Assembly: GCA_024762535.1 (NCBI GenBank)
Contig: JANTHG010000004.1
Location: forward strand, 1 to 41,705
Length of the DNA stretch: 41,705 nucleotides
Origin: Calditrichaceae bacterium
GTDB lineage: Bacteria; Calditrichota; Calditrichia; Calditrichales; Calditrichaceae
Direction of reading: 5' to 3'
Below the pieces are notes generated by a model. That model saw nothing but the letters and a program-made list of their open reading frames with translations. It was not told the origin of the DNA and ran no database searches. The position numbers and the translations under genes were made by a program. This document shows, piece by piece, positions 3,889 to 15,036 of the stretch; position 1 is the first letter of the stretch; the number at the start of each line of letters is the position of its first letter.

Positions 3889-3910
3889 AATTAACAAGCT
3901 GTAAACAAAA

Positions 3911-3940
3911 GGCGAAACCAATTTGGTTTCGCCTTTTTTT
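3911..3940. terminator. Rho-independent terminator, probably bidirectional
   Basis: GGCGAAACC and GGTTTCGCC form a 9-bp stem with a 5-base loop, followed by seven T on the plus strand. On the minus strand the stem is followed by a TTTTG run. It lies between the convergent genes 1684-3888 (+) and 3994-5295 (-) and can serve both. Confidence 0.9.
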
Positions 3941-3993: not shown

Positions 3994-5295
3994 TCATTTC
4001 TTAGATGAGCCAAATTGAATGCCGATTTTTTTAAGAAGTCCAAAGGGCGCTTCTCCACCGGCAAATATAAATACATAATCATTGCTTAGATTTATGCGTT
4101 GATCCCCTAAATCGATTCCAACCTGTTTTTCCTCGATGCGAACCAGATTTGAATTATACAAAATTTTAATTGTACCAGTTCGGGTTAGTTCCTTTAAGCG
4201 TTCTTCATTTCTTTTCTTTATACGGAAAAACTTTTCTTTTCGATACGAAACGGTTACCTGGGTTCCGGGTTGTCTGGCCAGACCAATGGCAGCTTCAATT
4301 GCGCTGTCTCCACCTCCAACCACTAAAATATGTTCATTTTCATAAGAAGTCGCATCTAAGAGTTTGTACATCACTTTTGGAAGATGTTCCCCTGGGATAT
4401 TTAATTTACGTGGCATACCACGCCGACCTAATGCTAATACTACATTCCGTGTTTTAAATGTGTGGGTGCTGCATTGCACTTCGAGAATTCCATTTGGCCT
4501 GGTTATATTCAGTAATTTTTCATTAGTATGAATAGCTATTGAGAATCGTTTTTGAACTTGTTCCCAAATTTTCAGTAATTCTTCTTTACTATATTCCGGT
4601 TTATCAAGAATACCGTATAACGGAAGTTCGACCGGTTGCGTCATTACCAACTTTTTACGCGGGTATTGTAAAATGGTACCGCCTGCCTTCTGATGATCGA
4701 CCAGTAGGTAGGATAATTTATTTTTTTCAGCTGTTAAGGCTGCACTCATTCCTGCAGGGCCGGCTCCAATAATAACCAAATCAAAATCCGATGATGATGG
4801 ATCCGGTACAACGTGTTTACTTAAATGTTCAACAACTTTATTTCCTTGTTTAATCGCATTTCGAATCAACGCCAAACCACCCAATTCACCGGCAATATAA
4901 ATTCCTGGAATATTTGTCTGGCCTTGCTCATCATAAAATGGGATATCGTCCCGTTTGCTTATATCGCCCAAGCCAACCTGAATGGCGCCCACAGGACAGG
5001 CTTCTGCACATTTACCATGCCCCACACATTTAAGACCATTAATGATAGTGGCTTTACCAGATACGATTCCCAGCACGTCTCCTTCGGGACAGGCATCTAC
5101 ACAGGAAGCACAACCAATACAATTTAATTCATCAATCTGAGGATATTGGGCAATTGGTTTGTCCGATCCTAAACGCTGGGCTTCTAATTTTCGGATTCTA
5201 TCTTTATCCTGAAGTTTTTTAAATTTGAGGAAATACGGGAGAACAATAGATAAGGCAACTATAAAAGTAATAATCCAGATGAAATATGATTCCAT
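3994..5295 (-). CDS. Membrane-anchored Fe-S/FAD pyridine nucleotide oxidoreductase
   Basis: This 433-residue protein has an N-terminal transmembrane helix (about 5-24). A ferredoxin-like part follows with one full [4Fe-4S] motif (C59, C62, C65, C69) and a second motif in which the second cysteine is a histidine (C90, H93, C96, C100). Then comes a thioredoxin-reductase-like flavoprotein: FAD-binding GAGPAG at 177-182, NAD(P)-binding GGGDSA at 327-332 and a terminal FAGGE motif. A short AGELGGLALIRNAIKQG segment between the Fe-S and FAD parts resembles the end of another such flavoprotein, suggesting domain rearrangement. The redox CxxC of true thioredoxin reductases is absent. It is the last gene of the cytochrome operon, 11 bases after the barrel gene. 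It probably moves electrons between NAD(P)H and a membrane or Fe-S partner on the cytoplasmic side. Substrate and direction are inferred. Confidence 0.85.
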   Translation of the reverse strand: MESYFIWIITFIVALSIVLPYFLKFKKLQDKDRIRKLEAQRLGSDKPIAQYPQIDELNCIGCASCVDACPEGDVLGIVSGKATIINGLKCVGHGKCAEACPVGAIQVGLGDISKRDDIPFYDEQGQTNIPGIYIAGELGGLALIRNAIKQGNKVVEHLSKHVVPDPSSSDFDLVIIGAGPAGMSAALTAEKNKLSYLLVDHQKAGGTILQYPRKKLVMTQPVELPLYGILDKPEYSKEELLKIWEQVQKRFSIAIHTNEKLLNITRPNGILEVQCSTHTFKTRNVVLALGRRGMPRKLNIPGEHLPKVMYKLLDATSYENEHILVVGGGDSAIEAAIGLARQPGTQVTVSYRKEKFFRIKKRNEERLKELTRTGTIKILYNSNLVRIEEKQVGIDLGDQRINLSNDYVFIFAGGEAPFGLLKKIGIQFGSSKK

Positions 5296-5306
5296 GATAA
5301 ATCCTG

Positions 5307-6902
5307 TTAAAAGCGATAGCCTAATTCCGTTATAAAAGTATGCCCTTGACGGTCATCACCAAATTCATAGCTATACGTTCCGGCAAGATAGAGCTTGGCA
5401 GGCAGCTCAATTTGTCCATTAAGTCGAACCCATTGGTTAAGTTTGTTCTGCCCGCTGGAGCTCAACTGATAGATATAGTTGCCATAACTAAGATACAGGG
5501 CATGTCCCTGTTTAAAATATTTCCCGATTCGAAGTGATGGGTTAATTCCCTGATTAAAATAGTTTGAAAAGCCACTGATCCGAGTACTCAGGTTTATCTT
5601 TGGGAAAATGAAATTGTTTTTGGTCATCCTTATGGCGCCGGAAAAAGTGTAATCTGCATAATCGCTGCGGGTTCGTACGCCGGCGGTTATATAAAAAAGA
5701 TAATCATTAAAAACACGCGCACTTGCATTAATGCGTAAACCCTGCCGAAAGGCATCATCAAAAAGACTGTCCGCTAAAGTATAAATATCATAAGTCCAGT
5801 AATTCTGACGGTTATCTAAACTGAAGCCTGCACTCATAGAGTTTGTAAAGCGGTATTGACCACTGAGATACAAACCACTCACATTGAATGTACTTCTGCT
5901 TTTCTGCTGACGCCAGGCACGGTTGATATCCAGTTCTAAACTTTGATATAGATTCCAGCGATTATCGGATGCGTACGAAGATTGCAAATAGAGATATTCT
6001 CGGCTTACAACAGAACCGTGGTAGGCTCCGCTTGCTGCAAGAGTGATCTCTGTACGTTTTCGGCCATAGGTACCTTGTAAATAGTTAAGGAATAAACCAT
6101 ATTTCTGAATGGATGTTCGATAATCATTATATTGCCATTGGGGTTGAATACCGGCAAAACCACCCATTTTCCAATTTTGTTTCACTTGATATTCTGCCTG
6201 CAGACCATCGATATATCCCAGCCCACTGAATACATTAGAAATGATCCGACCAACCTGTAGTTGGACAGGTCCTGGTGGCTCCCAGGCAAGAGCAAAACGG
6301 TACAACCGATTATTCCATTCGTTTTTAGGCGTTCCATTTGAGAAAGCCCGCTGGCGTTGATTGTAGCGGCTGCGTACATAAAAATTAAATCGTAAATCGC
6401 TTCCCCACAAATGATCCGCCTTAAATTTGAAGCGAACTGTTGGTTGATTGAAATTAAAACCTAGTTTACTCCGGTCCATAAATTGGTACCATTGCAAACC
6501 AAGGTAGCCGCGAATCCGTGTCCTGTTCTTTCTTTCAATAAATGGAGCGGATGATTTTTGAGAGGATATTACTGGGAAGGCTGGTTTGACAGTTTGTTTT
6601 GTATCGATATTGTGTTTACTTAAAAGGAAAACCGGATCCCCCACATGGTAAGGGCTGTTTTGCTTTAAAACTTTACAGGATGCCGAATGCCGGGCTAAAT
6701 GGGATACTTTAAACATAGCAATTTGTTTATTGCCAATACGTACTTCGACCGTATCATTTACCTGTAAACCATCAGCAGAACCCTTACTGATATAAACCAA
6801 ATTGGCTGAAATATAACTGATTTTCATTTTCGTAATATTTGATCCTGCGAGAAGTATCATCCAACTAGCCAGAATCAAAAATAATATTTTTGATACGTTC
6901 AT
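5307..6902 (-). CDS. Outer-membrane beta-barrel of the cytochrome operon
   Basis: This 531-residue protein begins with a signal-peptide-like segment (MNVSKILFLILASWMILLAG). A small N-terminal beta domain (about 25-95, with ADGLQVNDTVEVRIGNKQ and HVGDPVFLL) resembles the small barrels that precede some FCB outer-membrane proteins. From about residue 130 to the end there are many alternating-hydrophobic strands rich in Tyr, Trp and Asn, ending in ELGYRF; the terminal Phe is typical of BamA-assembled barrels. It has no heme motif. It lies 2 bases after the 10-heme cytochrome gene and 11 bases before the Fe-S/FAD gene. This placement suggests it is the porin of a porin-cytochrome conduit, by analogy with MtrB-type and PCC porins. 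That role is inferred from context, not from recognised homology. Confidence 0.75.
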   Translation of the reverse strand: MNVSKILFLILASWMILLAGSNITKMKISYISANLVYISKGSADGLQVNDTVEVRIGNKQIAMFKVSHLARHSASCKVLKQNSPYHVGDPVFLLSKHNIDTKQTVKPAFPVISSQKSSAPFIERKNRTRIRGYLGLQWYQFMDRSKLGFNFNQPTVRFKFKADHLWGSDLRFNFYVRSRYNQRQRAFSNGTPKNEWNNRLYRFALAWEPPGPVQLQVGRIISNVFSGLGYIDGLQAEYQVKQNWKMGGFAGIQPQWQYNDYRTSIQKYGLFLNYLQGTYGRKRTEITLAASGAYHGSVVSREYLYLQSSYASDNRWNLYQSLELDINRAWRQQKSRSTFNVSGLYLSGQYRFTNSMSAGFSLDNRQNYWTYDIYTLADSLFDDAFRQGLRINASARVFNDYLFYITAGVRTRSDYADYTFSGAIRMTKNNFIFPKINLSTRISGFSNYFNQGINPSLRIGKYFKQGHALYLSYGNYIYQLSSSGQNKLNQWVRLNGQIELPAKLYLAGTYSYEFGDDRQGHTFITELGYRF

Positions 6903-6904
6903 TT

Positions 6905-7705
6905 TTAATCCCCGCTTCCGGTTGGATGACAGGAGTAGCAGGCATCACTGTTATAACTATAGTTCTGTATTCCACTGTGCCTGCGATTCATATCATTCTC
7001 ATTATGTTCATGGCAATTAAAACAACTAAAAACTTGAAAATTATTAGTTGAAACGTGACAATCAGTACATTCATTCCATTCGGAACGATGCGTTCCTAAA
7101 TAGATCGGAAATATAGTTTCATGATCGGAATACAGCGCTGGTTGCCAGCCATTCATTGAATGACAATCTTCACAGCGAACACCTAAGGAGATAACTACAT
7201 GGGGTGGGTTTTTAGTATTCAGATAATTGCTTTTATGACAACCGTAACAATCGGAAGAAAGCCGTAAATAAGAATTTGTATTGCTTCGTTTATGGCAGGC
7301 AGAACAATCCAGGCTGGTATGTTGTCCTAATAAAATAAAAGTTGTATTTGCATGCGCTTTATAATAATCCGTTACCGCCCAGCTATCAGCTGTATGGCAA
7401 TTTTTGCATTGAATTCCCAAGCGCTGTTCGTGAATATCCTCATGACATGAGGTACAGTTGCTTTCAATTTTTGAAAAATTACGGATATCATGGCAATCCT
7501 TACAGGTAAGCAGATTATGTTTTCCTTCCAGAATAAATCCGGTTTTCTGGTGGTCAAAATGAATGGACTGCCATGATTGATCATTATGACATTGTTGACA
7601 ATTTTCGGAAATCTTTTTATGAGGCATTTCCCGGGCGAAAACCGTATTACCCAGAAAGAGAAAAAATACGAAAACAAAAATTCTGATACAACTTACCTTA
7701 ATCAT
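6905..7705 (-). CDS. Decaheme c-type cytochrome
   Basis: From the ATG at 7705 the protein has 266 residues: a signal peptide (MIKVSCIRIFVFVFFLF to VFA) and ten CxxCH motifs. Most sit in the recurring pattern F-x-H, T-x-F-x-L-x-G-x-H, C-x-x-C-H, where extra histidines can act as distal heme ligands. This is the cytochrome c3/c7-like multiheme style. Its C-terminal part (FPIYLGTHRSEW to CYSCHPTG) closely parallels the end of the 19-heme protein encoded just upstream, so the two are paralogues. The frame extends upstream to 7750, but those codons overlap the neighbour further and would bury the signal peptide; 7717 is another possible ATG. The 7705 start overlaps the upstream stop by 8 bases. 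Likely periplasmic or outer-membrane-associated electron carrier. Confidence 0.9.
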   Translation of the reverse strand: MIKVSCIRIFVFVFFLFLGNTVFAREMPHKKISENCQQCHNDQSWQSIHFDHQKTGFILEGKHNLLTCKDCHDIRNFSKIESNCTSCHEDIHEQRLGIQCKNCHTADSWAVTDYYKAHANTTFILLGQHTSLDCSACHKRSNTNSYLRLSSDCYGCHKSNYLNTKNPPHVVISLGVRCEDCHSMNGWQPALYSDHETIFPIYLGTHRSEWNECTDCHVSTNNFQVFSCFNCHEHNENDMNRRHSGIQNYSYNSDACYSCHPTGSGD

Positions 7706-9173
7706 CACTTTTACCATTCGGGTGACAGGAATAACAGGCAGTGCTTTCATAAGTATAGTCGATTACTTCATGATGTTTACTGTCAGTATCGTTCTTATTG
7801 TGCTCATGGCAATTAATACATTCAAATCGTTTATAGTCGGCCGTATTCACATGGCAATCGGAACAGGTATTCCATTCATTGCGGTGTTTGCCCGAATATA
7901 TGGGAAAATACTGCCCGTCATGATCCCAATTAGCCGGTTGCCAGGCGCTTGTGGAGTGGCAATCCTGACAGGTGGTGGGGAATTGCGCTGCTTTGTGATC
8001 GGGATCAGTAGTAGTATTGAAATCGGATTGATGACAGGCAACACATTCAGTGGGTGTATTGCTGTAGCCGTTACTATGACAGTCAGTACAGGAAACGGAA
8101 GTATGCGCCCCGGTCAACGGAAAAGTTGTTTGGTTGTGATCAAAAGTAGCCGGTTGCCAGGCGCTTGTGGAGTGGCAATCCTGACAGGAAGTGGGGAATT
8201 GGGAATCTTTGTGATTGGGGTCGGTAGTAGCATTGTATTCGGATTGATGGCAGGCAACACATTCAGTGGGTGTATTACTGTAGCCGTTACTATGACAGTC
8301 AGCACAGGAAACGGATTTATGCGCGCCGGTTAACAGAAAAGTGCTCAGATTATGATCAAAAGAAGCCGGACTCCATCCGTTTATAGTATGGCAATCTTCA
8401 CAGACGGTAGAAAAATGGGCGGTCACATGATTTGGATCGGTTGTAGAATTGAAATCATTTTGATGACAACTTACACACAAAGTAGAAATTTTTTGAAAAC
8501 CGGAAGTATGGCAATCCTGACATTGTAAACCAGAATGCCCGCTAATGAGTGGAAATGTGGAACTATGAATGAAACCGGTTCCGTTCCAGTTTGCGGATGA
8601 AATGAGGTGGCACTGTTGGCATTCCAGGTTAAAGCCAACTTTTTGGTGATTTGGATTGCGTGTTTGTATATAATCCTGCAAATGACATGATTTGCAAAGC
8701 ATGGAGGTGTTGGCATATTCATCCGGTTGTTGCCCGCCATGACAGGCCTGGCAATCGAGCTGGGCGTGAACGCCCATCAATGGGAAACCATATTCCAGAT
8801 GTTTTTTAGACTGGGTGTTCCTGTCTTCCCAACCTTGGGGACTGTGGCATTGTTCACAATTTTTCCCTAAACGATTTTTGTGGATGTCTGTGTGGCAATC
8901 GGCGCAGGAACTACCAATTTTATTAAATTCGAGACTCTGATGACAACTTAGGCAGGAAACCTGCTGATGTTGTCCAATTAAGGTGAAACCGGTTTGGGAA
9001 TGGTTGAATTTTAATCTTGAATAATCAATTTTCCACGAATCTGTTGTGTGACAGGTTTTACAGGCAAGGTCAAATTCGGTTCCATGCGGCATTTTTAAAT
9101 TATTCTGCCCATTAACAATTGACAGAATGCCGATCATAAAGAATAAAAATTTTAGGAATTTCATCATTTTCAT
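7698..9173 (-). CDS. 19-heme c-type cytochrome
   Basis: This 491-residue protein has a signal peptide (MKMMKFLKFLFFMIGILSIVNG) and nineteen CxxCH motifs, about one per 25 residues. The central part consists of a 72-residue unit present in two close copies and one diverged copy. Each unit has three hemes: CQDCH, then CTDCH or CADCH, then CVACH, with TTFPLTGAH between the first two. The end (PIYSGKHRNEW to CYSCHPNG) matches the decaheme protein. Its start overlaps the stop of the 20-heme gene in an ATGA, indicating translational coupling. Such a long string of bis-His hemes would act as an electron wire in the periplasm, possibly reaching the outer-membrane barrel encoded two genes downstream. 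Confidence 0.92.
   Translation of the reverse strand: MKMMKFLKFLFFMIGILSIVNGQNNLKMPHGTEFDLACKTCHTTDSWKIDYSRLKFNHSQTGFTLIGQHQQVSCLSCHQSLEFNKIGSSCADCHTDIHKNRLGKNCEQCHSPQGWEDRNTQSKKHLEYGFPLMGVHAQLDCQACHGGQQPDEYANTSMLCKSCHLQDYIQTRNPNHQKVGFNLECQQCHLISSANWNGTGFIHSSTFPLISGHSGLQCQDCHTSGFQKISTLCVSCHQNDFNSTTDPNHVTAHFSTVCEDCHTINGWSPASFDHNLSTFLLTGAHKSVSCADCHSNGYSNTPTECVACHQSEYNATTDPNHKDSQFPTSCQDCHSTSAWQPATFDHNQTTFPLTGAHTSVSCTDCHSNGYSNTPTECVACHQSDFNTTTDPDHKAAQFPTTCQDCHSTSAWQPANWDHDGQYFPIYSGKHRNEWNTCSDCHVNTADYKRFECINCHEHNKNDTDSKHHEVIDYTYESTACYSCHPNGKSDD
7932..8363. repeat. 216-bp tandem repeat inside the 19-heme cytochrome gene
   Basis: Two adjacent units, 7932-8147 and 8148-8363, each encode 72 residues with three hemes. 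The first 41 bases of both units are identical, and other long blocks are shared, for example the stretch around GGCAACACATTCAGTGGGTG. A third, more diverged unit follows at about 8364-8570. The period is an exact multiple of three, so copy-number change keeps the reading frame. Confidence 0.85.
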
Positions 9174-10891
9174 TGTTTAACCTTGTTTGTCTTTGAATTT
9201 CCATGGCAAGAAGCACAATCTGTACTTAAAGGTTTGTAGCGAATAAAGATATCCTGCTTACTTTTTTGCGCCGGATGACATCGAACGCATTCTACACGGA
9301 GATGGGCTCCATTCAGTTGAAAGCGACTGTCACGATTATGGTCAAATTTGAGTTTTGCCCAACCGATCGGTGAATGGCATTTGGCGCAGGATGTTTTATT
9401 CTGCTGATCGGCAAACTGTCCATGATGGATATCCTGATGACAGTTTGAGCATGAAGCGTCATTTATTTTTAACGGGATCAAAACTTTACCCGAAATATCC
9501 TTAAGTATTTTGTGACAATTCTGACAGCGAACCTGTAAATGCTTTCCTAATAAAGGAAATTTAGTTTTGCTGTGATCAAACGGAATAGCCTGCCAGCTTT
9601 GACTTGAGTGGCAAAAGGTACATCGCTCTGAGTTACTATAAAGATTTTGAGCTTTAAGAAAATCGTCAGCCGCACCATTATGTACATCTCTATGGCAATC
9701 AAAACATTCAAATGAATCATAATGAAAGCGTATCTTCTTTATTTTTCCGTCTGCTTCGATTTTTTTATGGCAGACCAGGCAGGGAATTGCCTGATGAGCT
9801 CCCTTTAAGGGAAAGCGTGTTTTGGAATGTTGCAGCAATGAAAAATTTGTGCGTTCAAATCCGTTGGTCGTATGGCAGTCTGCACAATCTTTTTGGCTGA
9901 GTTTGACTGAGAATTCATTACGGTGAAAATTTTCATGACAATTTTTACATTTATTAAAATGAGCTATACGCTTTGATGTTGTATTAGTATGGCACTTTTC
10001 ACAAGCAACATTTTTATGCATTCCCTTCAGTTTATATCGTGTCCGGTCGTGATTAAATGAATTTTTACTATATTGATTCCAGCCGGAAGTGTTGTGGCAA
10101 GAGCTGCATTTTTTACCCAATTGCCCACGATGCACATCTTCATGACAACTGATGCAGGTATTATGTTTTATGTGCGAAAATTTTAAGAAATGGGGACTTT
10201 CTACGGATGCATGGTCTGTTACAACTTTATGGCATTTTTGACATTTTACCTGTTTATGTTTTCCGGTTAACTTAAATGTAGTATTATTATGGTCGAACCC
10301 CGGAACTGGTTTCCAGGCTATTTGATTGTGGCAATGTGTACAGCTCTGTTTAAACTGTGCTCGGTGCTCATCCATGTGGCAACGGACACAACTTGTATCT
10401 AAGCCTAAAAAAGTATGTTTTAAATTCTTTTTCTTTTGAAGCAGTTCTTCTTTATGCGCTATAAATTCCGGTTTATGACAATCCCGGCATTTTAATTCTT
10501 TGTGTTTTCCCTGAAGTGGCATTCCGGTTTGAGCATGATCAAAATTATTTTGACCATTTTCCCAGAAAATTAGATCTGCATTTCTACCCTGGTGTTCCAC
10601 ATGACAAGTTTCACACCTTTGATATTTTGGATTTGCATGTAAGCCTTTCTTCTGGTTGATTTCATCTTTAATCAGTGTATGGCAATTGAGGCAATTATCC
10701 GAAGATAACTGCTCACCTGTTTTATGACATTGCGTACAGTTTTCCAAGCCTTCAAGTTGACTGTGAGAATGGTGCAAATCCCCTGGGGAAAGTTGAGAAA
10801 ATACAGGGCTGCTACTTAATATGATCAGAGTTAAAAATCGTACAAAGAATCCGTAATGCAATATTTTGCCAACTTTCTGAATCAAGGGCAT
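9170..10891 (-). CDS. 20-heme c-type cytochrome
   Basis: From the ATG at 10891 the protein has 573 residues, a signal peptide ending SSSPVFSQ and twenty CxxCH motifs. Hemes are mostly arranged as F-D-H, T-x-F-x-L-x-G-x-H, C-x-x-C-H followed by C-x-x-C-H-x-D-x-H, giving many candidate bis-His hemes. It is lysine-rich, so probably basic, unlike the more acidic 19-heme protein. The frame extends to 10924, overlapping the membrane gene upstream; the 10891 start leaves a 5-base gap and a cleaner signal peptide. It is the first soluble cytochrome of the operon, directly after the b-type membrane protein. The simplest role is to accept electrons from that protein in the periplasm, which is an inference. 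Confidence 0.9.
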   Translation of the reverse strand: MPLIQKVGKILHYGFFVRFLTLIILSSSPVFSQLSPGDLHHSHSQLEGLENCTQCHKTGEQLSSDNCLNCHTLIKDEINQKKGLHANPKYQRCETCHVEHQGRNADLIFWENGQNNFDHAQTGMPLQGKHKELKCRDCHKPEFIAHKEELLQKKKNLKHTFLGLDTSCVRCHMDEHRAQFKQSCTHCHNQIAWKPVPGFDHNNTTFKLTGKHKQVKCQKCHKVVTDHASVESPHFLKFSHIKHNTCISCHEDVHRGQLGKKCSSCHNTSGWNQYSKNSFNHDRTRYKLKGMHKNVACEKCHTNTTSKRIAHFNKCKNCHENFHRNEFSVKLSQKDCADCHTTNGFERTNFSLLQHSKTRFPLKGAHQAIPCLVCHKKIEADGKIKKIRFHYDSFECFDCHRDVHNGAADDFLKAQNLYSNSERCTFCHSSQSWQAIPFDHSKTKFPLLGKHLQVRCQNCHKILKDISGKVLIPLKINDASCSNCHQDIHHGQFADQQNKTSCAKCHSPIGWAKLKFDHNRDSRFQLNGAHLRVECVRCHPAQKSKQDIFIRYKPLSTDCASCHGNSKTNKVKQ

Positions 10892-10896
10892 TTTTA

Positions 10897-11775
10897 TCAA
10901 AAAATCCAACGATAGCCAAGCCAAACAGTGATCCCCACGTGTACAAACATTATCAGATACATCAAAATAGCAAAGGGTTTATGAAATACATGCCAATAGT
11001 GGAATACTTGATGTATCCGGTTAAGAAAGCGGATACGGCGTGTAAGTTTATTTTTTTGATATAAAAGCGATACTAATTCATGTTTTTGTTTACCATCAAT
11101 CCCATAAGAATCTTTTAATTTTTTGAATATTTTGGGGCGGCGTATTTGAAATAATAGATCATCCGCTATAAAATGCAGTAAAATTGAGAAAAAAGAAGGA
11201 GAACCCTGAATCCGTTTCATAACAAGAGAGCTGATTTCTTCAATTTCCTGTATGGTAAGTTTGAATTGCTCTTGTAATTGTAAATTCAGATTGGTATTGA
11301 GTTTGTCCAGCTCGTCATGGGTTAATTCGTGCCCACGAATATTACGTGGAATCTGCAAATAAAGATAACGACCCAACACTCCGGAAAGAGCAACCGCAAT
11401 CATAGACCAAAAACTAACTGCAATCAATCCATTAAGCTTAAAGGTACTATGTAAAATAATGAACATCGGCCCACTTATACCAAAAAATATATGTATTTGC
11501 AACCAGTGACTCATACTCCCAAATTGTCCAAATAGTCGGGTTCGTTTTCGAAGGGAGTAAAGTAACAGAAGAAGTAGCATCGTAGAACCGATAATTCCAA
11601 AACCATGTCCCCACCACCCCCCGGGTTTATATTGACTATAATTTGTGTGACGTACTCGTTCTGCAAGCGGAGTGATAAAATAATCGAATTCGGTTAACAT
11701 AAAATATATAAATAGGGCTATTGTAATTGAATACAAGAAAAATAAAAAAAATTTAAACCGAAATAGTCTTTGCAT
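10897..11775 (-). CDS. Di-heme b-type-like integral membrane protein
   Basis: From the ATG at 11775 the protein has 292 residues and about five membrane helices (roughly 8-27, 56-74, 92-112, 117-140, 266-287). Helix three carries H95 and H109 and helix five carries H265 and H279. Both pairs are spaced His-x13-His, the spacing that holds two stacked b-hemes in cytochrome b and in ferric-reductase/NOX-type domains, where helices three and five are also used. A charged, helical, probably cytoplasmic loop of about 120 residues separates helices four and five. The frame extends to a GTG at 11850, adding a basic, non-hydrophobic tail; an AGAGG lies just before the 11775 ATG. As first gene of the cytochrome operon it is a good candidate for the quinol- or NAD(P)H-linked electron entry point. 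I do not recognise a named family. Confidence 0.75.
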   Translation of the reverse strand: MQRLFRFKFFLFFLYSITIALFIYFMLTEFDYFITPLAERVRHTNYSQYKPGGWWGHGFGIIGSTMLLLLLLYSLRKRTRLFGQFGSMSHWLQIHIFFGISGPMFIILHSTFKLNGLIAVSFWSMIAVALSGVLGRYLYLQIPRNIRGHELTHDELDKLNTNLNLQLQEQFKLTIQEIEEISSLVMKRIQGSPSFFSILLHFIADDLLFQIRRPKIFKKLKDSYGIDGKQKHELVSLLYQKNKLTRRIRFLNRIHQVFHYWHVFHKPFAILMYLIMFVHVGITVWLGYRWIF

Positions 11776-11850
11776 TGGCCTCTTTCGAATGGTCTTTTTT
11801 TTATTTGGTTTTAGTACCCGGGGTTCAGGAAATGGGTTTATTAAAATCAC

Positions 11851-11966: not shown

Positions 11967-12009
11967 AAAAAAGCAACCGGGCGATATATGTACTCATCCC
12001 GATTGCTTT
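11967..12009 (-). terminator. Rho-independent terminator of the surface-cytochrome gene
   Basis: On the minus strand AAAGCAATCGGG pairs with CCCGGTTGCTTT (one mismatch) around a 16-base loop, followed by six T. It begins 13 bases after the stop at 12023, so the surface cytochrome and the six-gene operon are probably separate transcripts. Confidence 0.75.
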
Positions 12010-12022
12010 ATTTGGTAGTATT

Positions 12023-13483
12023 TTATCGCATTACAAACATTTTTCGGGTTTGGCTAAAATGATTAATGCTCAAACGGTAAAAATAGACTCCCGCTGCTAA
12101 GAAAGAACCATTATACTGAACGCGGTATTCACCTGGATTCAGTTTTTTATTTAAGATGGTTGCCAATTTGCGTCCATTTAAATCAAAAACATCAAGATGA
12201 ACGCGACCGGGTTTCTGAATATTAAAACGTATCGTAGTAGAAAGTTGATTTCCTTTTCCGGATAGTTCCCCAAAAGGATTGGGGTAATTTTGGAATAATG
12301 TGTAAGATGAAGGAGGGTTAGGTGACATTGTCTCTAAAACAGAAGCCAGTAAACCATGCGGTCCGGGACCGTCGGGATTAATTCCATGACAGGTTTTACA
12401 ATCATTTAAGGTGCCGCTGTGCCCCTGCAGGGCGATAGCCTGAACATTGTCCCGGTCGTTGCCACTGGGAGCAATCGCATGTTGTTCGCCGTGGCAGGCA
12501 CTGCAATAAAGCCCGCCATGACCTTTGGAATCTTTGTACAGTTTTCCGCTTTCTTCGGCATATTTATTTCCATGGCAATTGGCATCTCCGCAGGATGGCT
12601 CATCAAGCCAGGGTCTGCGGCCGTTTTCGACGGATACGCCCACTTCGCGGACGCTGCCATGGCAATCCTGGCAAACAAAATTATGATCGGTTTTCATGGT
12701 ACCGCGCAAACATTGGGTATTGGGACCCGGATGGCATTTATAACAATCATTTGTTTTATCGGCATGCTTTTTATGAATGACCTCGGAAAATGAAGGAACA
12801 CCGGCATGGCCCGGTTTGTTCAGCGCATTGTCTTCATGACAGTCAGAGCAGAAAACCGGTTTGTCGTTGGGGTCGAAGCCACCCTCACGCTCATGTTCGT
12901 TTAAAATATCCTGTTCACTCGAGTGGCAGCCCGAGCTGACGCAGTTAATTTCATTAGAAACCGGAATGACCGGTTGTGTTTCTGCCAGGAGATTGCTTTG
13001 CGTGTCATAAACACGAATCAATCCGAGCTGAAAGGCGTCTTCATGTTGTAAATCGGCATCTGTGTATGGCGTTAAGGGAACGCCGAAAGCGCTAAAATGG
13101 TCACTCTGCTGATCCAGATTGCCAGATAAACCGTGGCCTTCAAGCCCCATATTGGGCTCCAAGTTCACACCAAATAATTTATCCTCATAATCCCAAAAAT
13201 TTGTTTTACCCACAGAATAGGTGTTACCAGGGATTTCGTATGTGGCGGAAATATTTTGGGAAACAACATGCGGTGGATTAAGAGCATCTCCTTTTTGTAT
13301 AACCTGTGCGAAAATATTATTGTACGGTGGTAAAATGGAAATAGTTGAAAAATCCTGATTGCAGCAGTGCATGCCCAGGTCATTCCAGCTGATTACAATG
13401 TAGTCCTGTGCTTTGATGCTGCTGAACCCAAAAAAGAAAATCACTAAAAAAGAAACTGAAAATGCAAATGAACGCTTACGCAT
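12023..13483 (-). CDS. T9SS-exported multiheme surface cytochrome
   Basis: From the ATG at 13483, which has a strong GGGGGAA ahead of it, the protein has 486 residues. It has a signal peptide ending SIKAQ and an N-terminal domain starting ISWNDLGMHCCNQDF. A heme region follows with five CxxCH motifs (C202, C237, C261, C317, C352) and two CX4CH motifs (171-177, 288-294), so five to seven hemes. The end (about 395-486) is a T9SS type-A sorting domain with YTLFQNYPNPF and GGVYFYRL-like pattern. It should therefore be placed on the cell surface. It sits between lpd and the cytochrome operon, with its own likely promoter and terminator. The predicted role is the outermost electron carrier contacting a solid or soluble extracellular acceptor or donor. 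The frame extends 47 codons further upstream to a TTG, which I reject. Confidence 0.85.
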   Translation of the reverse strand: MRKRSFAFSVSFLVIFFFGFSSIKAQDYIVISWNDLGMHCCNQDFSTISILPPYNNIFAQVIQKGDALNPPHVVSQNISATYEIPGNTYSVGKTNFWDYEDKLFGVNLEPNMGLEGHGLSGNLDQQSDHFSAFGVPLTPYTDADLQHEDAFQLGLIRVYDTQSNLLAETQPVIPVSNEINCVSSGCHSSEQDILNEHEREGGFDPNDKPVFCSDCHEDNALNKPGHAGVPSFSEVIHKKHADKTNDCYKCHPGPNTQCLRGTMKTDHNFVCQDCHGSVREVGVSVENGRRPWLDEPSCGDANCHGNKYAEESGKLYKDSKGHGGLYCSACHGEQHAIAPSGNDRDNVQAIALQGHSGTLNDCKTCHGINPDGPGPHGLLASVLETMSPNPPSSYTLFQNYPNPFGELSGKGNQLSTTIRFNIQKPGRVHLDVFDLNGRKLATILNKKLNPGEYRVQYNGSFLAAGVYFYRLSINHFSQTRKMFVMR

Positions 13484-13534
13484 AATTCCCCCAGGATTTA
13501 TATGAAAAATTGAGTTACTATTTAAAACACAAAT

Positions 13535-13563
13535 AGCATAACCAAATATTTCATAATCATCAA
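13535..13563 (-). promoter_or_regulatory. Candidate promoter of the surface-cytochrome gene
   Basis: Reading the minus strand, TTGATG (13558-13563) is followed after exactly 17 bases by TATGCT (13535-13540), each a 4/6 match to sigma-70 boxes. It lies about 50 bases before the chosen start, in the 137-base gap after lpd. Confidence 0.35.
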
Positions 13564-13620
13564 GAGGTAAATTTTTTTTACGTACACTTAAAAAATCATT
13601 GTATGGGAATATAAATTCTA

Positions 13621-15036
13621 TCAACGATTTCTTTTGGGACGGTACACATGGGTGCTTTGCCCAAATACCATTTCAGCACTTTCCATTAGAGTCTCCGAGA
13701 GGGTGGGGTGGGGATGTATACTCAGTTTTAAATCATTTGCATTCGCGGCCATCTCAATGGCTAATACGCCTTCGGCAATCATTTCGCCGGCTCCGCTGCC
13801 TACAATGCCAACTCCAAGGATACGTTGTGTCTCTTTATGGATAATTAATTTCGTTAATCCATCCGGACGATCCATGGTGAGTGCGCGACCGGAAGCGGCC
13901 CAGGGGAAACGCATAATTTCTACAGCTAGTTTTTGATCTTTTGCCTCTTGTTCGGTTAAGCCGGCCCAGGCAATTTCCGGATCTGTAAAAACAACGGCAG
14001 GAATTGCAGCCGGTTCGAATGCTGCTTTATGCCCGGCAATAACTTCGGCGGCAATGCGGCCTTCGGCAGAAGCTTTGTGTGCTAACATGGGTTCACCGGC
14101 CACGTCGCCAATAGCAAATATGGTGGGCTCAACTGTCCGATTGTGTGCATCCACCGGAATAAATCCCTGCCGGTTTGGTTTGATCTTTGTATTTTCCAAA
14201 CCAAGAGCTTCGGAATTAGGTGTGCGACCTATGGAGTAAAGCACTTTGGAAAAAATCTGATCTTCTGCACCTTCAAACTGAATTTTAATTCCGTTTTTTA
14301 CCTCTTTCATGGAAGAGACTTTGGTGTTGAGCATGATTCTTTCAAATCTCTTATCAAGATTTTTCTGTAATATCCTAACCAGATCGCGATCGGCAGCTGT
14401 GAGCAGATTCGGAAGCATTTCCACAACCGATACCTTACTGCCAAGGGCAGCATACACGGTGCCCATTTCTAAGCCGATATAGCCACCGCCAATGATAAGC
14501 AACGATTCGGGAATATCTTCCAGGTTTAAGGCCTGAGTAGAATTCATTACCCGTTTACTATCAATAAAAAGCTTGGGAATGGTTGTTGGTCGGGAACCCG
14601 TTGCAAGGATGCTGTAGTCGAATCTGATTACTTGTTTTTCATTATTCAGATCTTTCAGTTCCAGATGATGGGCATCTTTAAATTGTGCCCGGGCGCGAAT
14701 ATGATTTATTTTACGTTGAGTAGAAAGACTTCCCAGGCCGCTGGTTAATTGAGAAACTACGGAATCTTTCCAGCTCCGTATTTTGTTGATATCTATTTCC
14801 GGTTCACCGAAGGTGACTCCCCATTTATGGGACTCCCTAGCTTCATTTATTAATTTTGCGAGATGCAACAGGGCTTTGGAAGGAATGCAACCGCGATACA
14901 GACAAACGCCACCCGGATTTTCAGCGGGATCGATTAATGTAACTTCAAAACCTAGATCTGCTGCCATAAAAGCGGCGGCATATCCTCCCGGACCTCCACC
15001 AATGACGGCAACCTGTGTTTTTGTTATTTCAGACAT
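13621..15036 (-). CDS. lpdA: Dihydrolipoyl dehydrogenase (E3)
   Basis: This 471-residue flavoprotein reoxidises dihydrolipoamide with NAD+, completing the pyruvate dehydrogenase cycle. It has the FAD motif GGGPGG near the N-terminus, the redox-active disulfide in GGVCLYRGCIPSK (about residues 42-54), the NAD-binding GGGYIGLEMG, the second FAD motif AIGDV and the C-terminal catalytic HPHPTLSE. The 'CLYRGC' form of the redox loop differs from the commoner CLNVGC but keeps both cysteines. CGGAG lies 6-7 bases before the ATG. It is the third gene of the aceE-aceF-lpd cluster, 34 bases after aceF. It may also serve other 2-oxoacid dehydrogenases. Confidence 0.96.
   Translation of the reverse strand: MSEITKTQVAVIGGGPGGYAAAFMAADLGFEVTLIDPAENPGGVCLYRGCIPSKALLHLAKLINEARESHKWGVTFGEPEIDINKIRSWKDSVVSQLTSGLGSLSTQRKINHIRARAQFKDAHHLELKDLNNEKQVIRFDYSILATGSRPTTIPKLFIDSKRVMNSTQALNLEDIPESLLIIGGGYIGLEMGTVYAALGSKVSVVEMLPNLLTAADRDLVRILQKNLDKRFERIMLNTKVSSMKEVKNGIKIQFEGAEDQIFSKVLYSIGRTPNSEALGLENTKIKPNRQGFIPVDAHNRTVEPTIFAIGDVAGEPMLAHKASAEGRIAAEVIAGHKAAFEPAAIPAVVFTDPEIAWAGLTEQEAKDQKLAVEIMRFPWAASGRALTMDRPDGLTKLIIHKETQRILGVGIVGSGAGEMIAEGVLAIEMAANANDLKLSIHPHPTLSETLMESAEMVFGQSTHVYRPKRNR

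Follow-up and report, generated by a model that had tools for sequence, protein, structure and literature searches.

A conserved multiheme cytochrome operon with a putative NAD(P)H dehydrogenase as a candidate trans-envelope electron conduit in Calditrichota and other phyla

Does a six-gene operon in a Calditrichaceae genome encode a complete path for electrons across the cell envelope, and, if so, from which donor and in which direction would they flow? The operon lies in a 41,705-nucleotide stretch of contig JANTHG010000004.1 (Calditrichaceae bacterium, GCA_024762535.1; hereafter the window), for which an earlier note had proposed such a conduit from the letters alone. We read its parts, motifs, synteny, co-occurrence and repeat grammar directly from sequence, and complement these with structural models of the inner-membrane protein and the barrel.

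Operon layout

All six open reading frames occupy the minus strand at 3994-11775 of the window, as had been described. In transcription order, with the flanking hairpins, the features are:

about 11967..12009, minus strand: terminator-like hairpin just upstream of the operon (fold energy -19.5 kcal/mol, z -5.0, with a T-run after it)
10897..11775, minus strand: IMP, a five-TM, di-heme b-type-like inner-membrane protein (292 aa from the ATG at 11775)
9170..10924, minus strand: MHC-A, a 20-heme c-type cytochrome (20 CxxCH)
7698..9173, minus strand: MHC-B1, a 19-heme c-type cytochrome (19 CxxCH)
6905..7750, minus strand: MHC-B2, a 10-heme paralogue of MHC-B1 (10 CxxCH; likely start near 7705)
5307..6902, minus strand: predicted outer-membrane beta-barrel with a small N-terminal, FlgT_C-like beta domain (AlphaFold2 model)
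3994..5295, minus strand: FAD/2[Fe-S] oxidoreductase with one N-terminal TM helix and a predicted cytoplasmic body (Pfam, motifs)
3907..3937, no strand assigned: two-sided terminator-like hairpin at the operon end (14-pair stem, T-runs, z -6.5)

The CxxCH counts (20 + 19 + 10) give the 49 c-hemes claimed earlier, and the spacing is as tight as claimed, with junctions of -28, -4, -53, +2 and +11 bases in transcription order, the -53 overlap shrinking to about -8 with the alternative start of the 10-heme gene. An in-frame GTG at 11850 is a possible alternative start of the IMP. Because terminator-like hairpins stand on both sides, the operon has the look of a single closed unit, with the upstream hairpin dividing it from 7-heme and pdh genes. 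We considered the upstream 7-heme, T9SS-tailed cytochrome as a further member and rejected it, given the hairpin, a gap of about 250 bp and its irregular presence beside the set in relatives.

Conservation across phyla

The doubt that these genes might never be conserved together is dispelled by the gene order in relatives: 37 of 80 named loci, drawn from over ten phyla (a dozen or so), hold the IMP, MHC-A, an MHC-B, the barrel and the FAD/Fe-S gene together, and most of the remaining loci are broken by contig ends. Such syntenic recurrence is far beyond chance. In an independent test among 297 Bacteroidota genomes, the IMP and a full-length FAD/Fe-S gene are both present in 28, the IMP only in 1, the FAD/Fe-S gene only in none and neither in 268 (Fisher p 2e-38), with 27 of the 28 FAD/Fe-S genes inside the cluster, adjoining IMP and MHC, or the barrel, or an MHC. 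The corresponding counts for Calditrichota are 20, 4, 1 and 15 (p 1.6e-6), where the discordant cases fall at contig ends. The position of the FAD/Fe-S gene varies (first, second or last), yet the gene is retained; a second B-type cytochrome is present in most Calditrichota.

The set seems to be present in cultured organisms as well. In Emticicia oligotrophica DSM 17448 it sits on a plasmid, and since this species is an aerobe, dissimilatory metal respiration cannot be the sole use of the system. Caldithrix abyssi LF13 is probably another cultured host; for this strain, growth is reported through fermentation or nitrate respiration alone, with ferric iron or ferrihydrite unmentioned (PMC5317091), and its genome paper does not discuss the set. 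Our literature search (open-licence papers, preprints excluded) returned no description of the set in FCB phyla.

The inner-membrane protein and its flavoprotein partner

The IMP contains two exact WX3HX13H motifs and an SGxxG motif (positions 91-109, 261-279 and 131-135, respectively), with His95, His109, His265, His279, Trp91 and Trp261 invariant in 40 of 40 relatives. Its AlphaFold2 model (pLDDT 89.7) has five TM helices and a helical loop of about 110 aa between TM4 and TM5, placed in the cytoplasm by the positive-inside rule and of conserved length among relatives (103-123 aa). A PDB profile search gave no match, nor did Foldseek find a confident fold match to the model in the PDB; the family matches Pfam weakly, to DUF4405 (25 of 40), Ferric_reduct (9 of 40, E 4e-4 at best) and cytochrome b561 (Ni_hydr_CYTB; 6 of 40). 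These matches and the motifs suggest an FRD-like fold. Distant homologues on proteobacterial plasmids adjoin a c3 cytochrome and a FAD/NAD/2Fe-2S protein of the FNR type, which is unrelated to the flavoprotein here, and two different NAD(P)H-flavoprotein families therefore pair with this b-protein.

The flavoprotein matches Pyr_redox_3 (E=9e-49) and Fer4 domains in Pfam and combines two Fe-S motifs with a YpdA/TrxR-like flavodomain, whose nearest sequence in the PDB is YpdA/Bdr (7a7b, E=4e-26). Among 30 relatives, Cys59, Cys65, Cys69, Cys90, Cys96 and Cys100 are invariant and His93 nearly so. As its single TM helix is followed by KFKK, the body of the protein is predicted to be cytoplasmic. 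Unlike the bacillithiol disulfide reductases of the YpdA/Bdr family, the closest flavodomains by sequence, it has the TM helix, the Fe-S motifs and a permuted domain order, in which the C-terminal segment of the FAD domain precedes the N-terminal Rossmann fold. Beyond those of the Fe-S motifs it has no pair of cysteines, hence no catalytic dithiol, and the protein scores 171.6 bits against TIGR04018 (YpdA), under the 339.9-bit family cut-off; together with the obligate linkage to the cluster, this rules out an ordinary thioredoxin or bacillithiol reductase. The basic R-K/R-x2-F-x-R stretch after GGGDSA resembles, as we read it, the NADPH 2'-phosphate motif of TrxR.

Cytochromes and barrel

The three cytochromes fall into two types. 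MHC-A has a signal-like N-terminus, matches Cytochrome_C7/c3 in Pfam and hardly varies in heme number, with exactly 20 hemes in 53 of 69 complete homologues and 17, 20 or 23 in 66 of 69. MHC-B1 is built from a 7-heme N-cap, three triheme repeats of 72 aa and a 3-heme C-cap, with CxxCH spacings of 36-16-16-35-19-25 / (33,15,25)(32,15,25)(32,15,25) / 35-15-28, and within its gene a 216-bp unit is repeated in tandem (7920-8369, 86% match). The spacings of MHC-B2, 32-16-16-34-19-25 / 35-15-28, are those of the MHC-B1 caps with zero repeats, and we score it as B-type. Across relatives, MHC-B proteins hold 7 to 73 hemes, with fixed caps and a variable number of the 72-residue repeats. This new point suggests a surface wire of modular build, with the 10-heme protein as its zero-repeat form. 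Neither a T9SS tail nor a clear lipobox was found in the MHC-B proteins.

In the AlphaFold2 model of the barrel (pLDDT 87.6), a signal helix and a small beta domain (26-95) precede 22 strands (129-530). Against the PDB it matches barrels of a generic kind (ushers, OprD/Occ, AlgE), at 7-13% identity, and a PDB profile search gave one marginal match. The barrel matches no Pfam porin family; among 38 relatives, 15 match FlgT_C and none matches PF11854. We thus rejected a known specific transporter, and none of the homologues proved to be one; had they been, a joint conduit would have been unlikely by the terms of the earlier note.

Likeness to known conduits

The closest described system is PCC3 (He et al. 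2017, PMC5566968; Gallionellaceae, PMC10734462), predicted to consist of a porin, an extracellular MHC, a periplasmic MHC of about 21 hemes and a five-TM di-heme inner-membrane protein. Shared with it are an IMP of about 300 aa and five TM helices, with SGxxG on TM4 and WX3HX13H on TM3 and TM5 (the exact defining motif of the PCC3/PCC4 IMP), an outer-membrane barrel or porin in the cluster, repeat-rich sequences and about 26 aa per heme. Its periplasmic MHC has a median of 21 hemes (21, 24 and 27 in Gallionellaceae, in steps of three), compared with 20 (17/23) in the predicted periplasmic MHC-A, and its large variable MHC has 10-35 hemes in Gallionellaceae and up to 85 elsewhere, compared with 19 and 10 in the predicted surface MHC-B proteins. 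However, the PCC3 porin has up to 42 predicted TM segments rather than a predicted 22 strands, PCC3 was described from Gallionellaceae and other Proteobacteria, whereas the present set is found in FCB-group phyla and Acidobacteriota and has a second B-type cytochrome in most Calditrichota, and PCC3, as described, includes no flavo-Fe-S subunit, whereas the membrane-anchored FAD/2[Fe-S] partner is obligate here. For this last reason we count the operon as a probable variant of the PCC3 kind and not as a member, by likeness of motif, architecture and described heme counts.

The proposal of an undescribed system thus holds in part: the porin, MHC and IMP plan was already predicted for PCC3, whereas the obligate flavo-Fe-S subunit (with a TrxR-like NADPH motif, no catalytic dithiol and permuted order), the modular wire and the distribution across phyla appear to be new. 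The pairing of a flavin/Fe-S protein with an FRD-like one is indeed unusual, and we found no description of it in the literature searched.

Other systems are less similar. PCC4 (He et al. 2017) shares a porin, three MHCs, an IMP with the same motifs and accompanying redox/Fe-S genes, but its MHCs have 4, 5 and 10 hemes, all predicted periplasmic, instead of 20, 19 and 10, and the Fe-S gene beside them belongs to pfam13247. MtrCAB, MtoAB and PioAB also combine a barrel with multiheme cytochromes across the outer membrane; the inner-membrane partner here is not CymA-like, and an MtrB/PioB-type conduit is ruled out as the whole genome has no match to PF11854. The earlier statement that no part resembles MtrA, MtrB or MtrC stands for MtrB and for MtrA (21-54 bits against the DmsE/MtrA model TIGR03508, cut-off 192.2), but was too strong for MtrC: PF22113 (MtrC/MtrF domains II/IV) passes the Pfam cut-off in the 19- and 20-heme proteins, a signal that dense CxxCH proteins may share generally. 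NOX and ferric reductases (FRD) likewise place two b-hemes on HX13H pairs of TM3 and TM5 and feed them from a flavin/NADPH module; here, by contrast, the flavoprotein is separate, YpdA-like, Fe-S-bearing and permuted, the output is a multiheme wire and the Ferric_reduct match is weak.

Electron path and direction

Conserved gene order, co-occurrence, the di-heme motif, the barrel model and the lack of transporter homologues together support well the joint trans-envelope conduit first proposed. Beyond this, we lean slightly towards a complete, mainly outward-working conduit of the PCC3 kind that begins on the inside with a flavin/Fe-S NAD(P)H dehydrogenase in the cytoplasm; the localisation and contacts of the cytochromes, the cofactor loading, the electron donor and the direction are what we infer for it. 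NADPH (or NADH) would reduce the FAD of the 3994-5295 protein at the cytoplasmic face, and electrons would pass through its two Fe-S clusters to the b-heme on the cytoplasmic side of the IMP (His95/His265), then to the one on the periplasmic side (His109/His279). MHC-A, with its near-constant heme number, would span the periplasm. The 22-strand barrel would take the conduit across the outer membrane, holding inside or close to it one B-type cytochrome, perhaps that with 10 hemes and zero repeats. From there the 19-heme MHC-B1 would project as a wire of modular build and deliver electrons to a mineral, partner cell or soluble acceptor. Export is the most likely direction, argued rather than proven from the NADPH-type motif and the cytoplasmic clusters. 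For electrons that leave NAD(P)H at about -320 mV, the way out follows both the redox gradient and the membrane potential, whereas the reverse would oppose both, which favours the outward direction. Quinol or ferredoxin could be alternative donors, and further points that weigh against this reading are the lack of a confident fold match for the IMP, the missing T9SS tail and clear lipobox of the MHC-B proteins, the growth modes reported for C. abyssi and, for metal respiration as the only use, the aerobic host Emticicia.

Might the same parts instead serve uptake, oxidising Fe(II), a mineral or a partner cell outside and handing the electrons through the IMP to quinone, while the flavoprotein forms a side branch? 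PCC3, to which the architecture and heme numbers are similar, comes from Fe(II) oxidisers and was modelled as uptake via the IMP to the quinone pool (PMC5566968), and the genome has a heme-copper oxidase of its own. We nevertheless consider uptake unlikely, as the flavoprotein, absent from PCC3 as described, is an obligate partner here and reduction of NAD(P)+ by extracellular donors along this path would be uphill. Slightly more doubtful is export fed by quinol, in which the IMP would oxidise menaquinol like a cytochrome b561 or CbcL-type subunit and the flavoprotein would serve otherwise (assembly, regulation or NAD(P)H:quinone input). The b561 and DUF4405 matches of some IMP members fit this, and other conduits are known to be served at the inner membrane by quinol oxidases of the CymA, CbcL and ImcH types (PMC6295460), but the near-perfect co-occurrence of IMP and flavoprotein, the long IMP loop of conserved length as a natural docking face and the convergent pairing of IMP homologues with FNR-type flavoproteins all speak against it.

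We find it improbable that the system is a non-respiratory, assimilatory or detoxifying reductase, serving ferric reduction for iron uptake, disposal of excess NADPH or oxidant defence. FRD/NOX and yeast FRE proteins share the logic of NADPH, flavin and di-heme b, which counts for such a role, as do the plasmid location in Emticicia and the lack of an energy-conserving pump in the operon; however, no iron-uptake genes adjoin the operon in the window, and up to 73 hemes look excessive for acquiring trace metal.

Implications

Our favoured reading, a conduit with an NAD(P)H dehydrogenase at its inner end, raises the tentative idea of a widespread class of quinone-pool bypasses in many phyla from which few extracellular electron transfer systems are known. 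In these, cytosolic NADPH would feed a flavo-Fe-S enzyme, a di-heme b-protein, a 20-heme cytochrome as long as the periplasm is wide and a surface wire whose reach would depend on how many 72-residue triheme repeats it has. If the reading is true, the IMP, the FAD/Fe-S protein, an MHC of about 20 hemes and the barrel would form a recognisable signature of trans-envelope electron transfer in Calditrichota, Zixibacteria, KSB1, Acidobacteriota, Marinimicrobia and about 9-10% of sampled Bacteroidota (28-29 of 297), where such systems are rarely recognised. The MHC-B family would offer a natural series of wires, with the same caps, integer repeats and 10 to 73 hemes, for studying conduction against length, and the cultured hosts would make the system testable. 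A direct route from NAD(P)H to the outside would, moreover, alter the energetics assumed for PCC3-like systems.

A conserved operon, probably one transcription unit

All six ORFs of the operon that the earlier note placed at 3994-11775 lie on the minus strand at the coordinates it gave, and ORFs, motif counts and junctions agree with its description of tightly packed genes with 49 CxxCH heme motifs. In transcription order they are:

10897..11775 (-), five-TM inner-membrane protein (IMP), di-heme b-type-like, 292 aa
9170..10924 (-), multiheme c-type cytochrome (MHC) of A type, 20 CxxCH
7698..9173 (-), MHC of B type, 19 CxxCH
6905..7750 (-), MHC of B type, 10 CxxCH
5307..6902 (-), outer-membrane barrel, 531 aa
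3994..5295 (-), FAD/Fe-S protein, 433 aa

The gene junctions are overlaps or gaps of 2 and 11 bases. A hairpin with a T-run separates IMP from an upstream 7-heme gene, and beyond the last gene stands a strong two-sided one, so the operon is probably transcribed as a single unit. The source genome has 3.27 Mb in 317 contigs and is 89% complete, with the window as contig C4. Just upstream, within a pyruvate dehydrogenase gene run and parted from the operon by the hairpin, 12023-13624 (-) encodes a probable surface-secreted cytochrome with 7 heme motifs (5 CxxCH, 2 CX4CH), a 'WNDLGMHCC' region near its N-terminus and a type-A T9SS sorting tail. A Crp/Fnr-type protein encoded nearby (869-1561, +) is a possible redox regulator.

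Searching for the gene order in Calditrichota, Ignavibacteria and other lineages, we found the set conserved together in many phyla. Among 40 Calditrichota genomes, where IMP, A, B, B, barrel, FAD/Fe-S is a recurring order, 24 have IMP, 21 a full FAD/Fe-S protein and 20 both, and the discordant cases sit at contig ends; G004, a complete single-contig genome of 4.98 Mb from the same family as the window, has the set. A scan of genome contigs returned at least 580 relatives. The best 80, which we examined, are titled Calditrichota, Zixiibacteriota, KSB1, Acidobacteria, Ignavibacteria, Bacteroidetes, Krumholzibacteriota, Neomarinimicrobiota, WOR-3, Marinamargulisbacteria, Electryonea and Chlorobiota, among others. 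All five gene kinds occur in 37 of these 80 loci, although such homologue counts are not independent observations and many clusters are seen only in part because the MAGs are fragmented. The place of the FAD/Fe-S gene depends on lineage (last, before IMP, or between IMP and MHC-A), and two genomes of one genus have IMP apart, with the other genes together roughly 9 kb away in one of them.

In 297 genomes of Bacteroidota, the phylum of a Prolixibacteraceae MAG, chosen regardless of the operon, 28 encode IMP with a full-length FAD/Fe-S protein, one only a broken IMP and none only a full-length FAD/Fe-S protein; 27 of these 28 FAD/Fe-S genes belong to the cluster. The cultured Emticicia oligotrophica DSM 17448 has the complete set on plasmid pEMTOL02: IMP, FAD/Fe-S, a 23-heme A, a 40-heme B and the barrel. 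Part of the Bacteroidota loci (L131, L132, L134, L135, L137, L140, L141) have an extra gene of roughly 200 aa between the IMP and FAD/Fe-S genes.

Cytochromes, barrel and inner-membrane protein

The three cytochromes reported previously are present, but regroup as one A-type and two B-types, which are distinguishable by their ends. Heme counts equal 2 modulo 3 in 66 of 69 complete MHC-A homologues (17, 20 or 23, with exactly 20 in 53) and 1 modulo 3 in 43 of 60 MHC-B homologues, which range from 7 to 73 hemes. These counts are descriptive, given the kinship of the sequences and a possible overlap between a few loci. For MHC-B, motif spacing accounts for this: a 7-heme N-cap (36-16-16-35-19-25) and a 3-heme C-cap (35-15-28) enclose n 72-residue triheme units (32-15-25), visible in the DNA as a 216-bp tandem repeat. 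This grammar fits the 19-heme (n = 3) and 10-heme (n = 0) proteins, whose genes are thus paralogues, as well as a 28-heme protein (locus L058) and the 73-heme, 1827-aa cytochrome of a Zixibacteria MAG (L066:11551-17034; 21 repeats), which has a 67-heme relative in L068. Non-motif His residues number roughly 1.2 per heme, a supply that allows bis-His ligation. The B-types have neither a T9SS tail nor a clear lipobox.

The barrel assignment holds in a model (pLDDT 87.6) in which 22 strands follow a signal helix and a small beta domain at the N-terminus. The protein matches no Pfam porin family, and the solved structures that it matches, at 7-13% identity, are generic barrels of several kinds (pilus ushers, OprD/Occ, AlgE), with no specific transporter among them; in 15 of 38 relatives the N-terminal domain is FlgT_C-like. 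The MtrB barrel has 26 strands; one of 22 without a plug would in principle be wide enough for a multiheme wire.

IMP contains the exact WX3HX13H motif twice, at residues 91-109 and again at 261-279, as well as SGVLG at 131. In all of 40 sequences from many phyla, Trp91, His95, His109, Gly132, Gly135, Trp261, His265 and His279 stay the same. Its AlphaFold2 model (pLDDT 89.7) has five long helices, with His95/109 on TM3 and His265/279 on TM5; TM4 and TM5 are joined by a helical loop, 103-123 residues long and cytoplasmic by the positive-inside rule. As Pfam gives weak matches only (DUF4405, Ferric_reduct, cytochrome b561) and Foldseek matched the model to no solved fold, we infer the di-heme b-type character from the motifs. 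IMP matches the described IMP of the predicted porin-cytochrome conduits PCC3 and PCC4 (He et al. 2017, PMC5566968).

A probably permuted flavoprotein

The FAD/Fe-S protein begins with a TM helix and a positively charged segment, after which come two Fe-S motifs, CX2CX2CX3C and CX2HX2CX3C, and then a YpdA/TrxR-like flavodomain. Across 30 relatives six Cys never vary and His93 hardly does. Fe-S ligation would be unusual in both motifs: the second has His where a second Cys is usual, and in the first the second Cys, Cys62, is replaced in one large subclade of the alignment (A6). The segment 'TNIPGIYIAGE' precedes the N-terminal GxGxxG fold, while its type is the C-terminal FAD segment of thioredoxin and glutathione reductases; searched alone, it aligns, each time weakly, to the C-terminal part of many solved reductases, so the flavodomain is likely a circular permutation. 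Apart from its Fe-S motifs the protein has no Cys pair, and a basic motif like that of TrxR, located after the second Rossmann motif, suggests NADPH as donor.

Other genomes encode fusions of a related permuted flavodomain with a NosR/NapH-like membrane polyferredoxin (L124:1939-4236, minus strand; frames of 800-900 aa in several Bacteroidota too), presumably the same electron-entry module on another membrane carrier. Plasmid loci of Methylophaga, Acetobacter and Alteromonas (L121, L122, L123) join an FNR-type FAD/2Fe-2S protein, an IMP-like b-protein and a c-type cytochrome in a three-gene module, with copper-resistance or [NiFe]-hydrogenase genes next to it; sphingomonad plasmids perhaps have it too.

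Relation to known conduits and direction of electron flow

An MtrAB/PioAB type was rejected, as the genome has no PF11854, and PCC4 because its heme numbers differ. Compared by description, PCC3 is the closest system: its architecture is the same, and its heme numbers are much alike (periplasmic 21, 24, 27; extracellular 10-35; PMC10734462). We do not claim membership, since the described set has no flavo-Fe-S subunit, unlike this operon. The earlier note's 'undescribed system' thus stands in part: the kind of conduit resembles PCC3, but we found no paper in the open-licence literature describing the flavo-Fe-S-bearing set in these phyla. By sequence, the operon would be a variant of the PCC3-like kind with an added flavo-Fe-S subunit.

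Two independent observations point to the flavoprotein as the putative electron entry. It co-occurs almost perfectly with IMP, and on plasmids of Alteromonas and Methylophaga the partners of distant IMP homologues are a c3 cytochrome and an FNR-type FAD/NAD/2Fe-2S protein that is unrelated to the flavoprotein. PCC3 is modelled as quinone-linked electron uptake (PMC5566968). Uptake may operate here instead, and if it went as far as NAD(P)+ it would work against both redox gradient and membrane potential; export may also pass through quinone. We favour export, as electrons from NAD(P)H would move down both. The most likely route would lead from NADPH through FAD and the Fe-S clusters to the two b-hemes of IMP, and from there along the 20-heme periplasmic wire to the barrel, which would hold a B-type cytochrome, and on to a surface wire.
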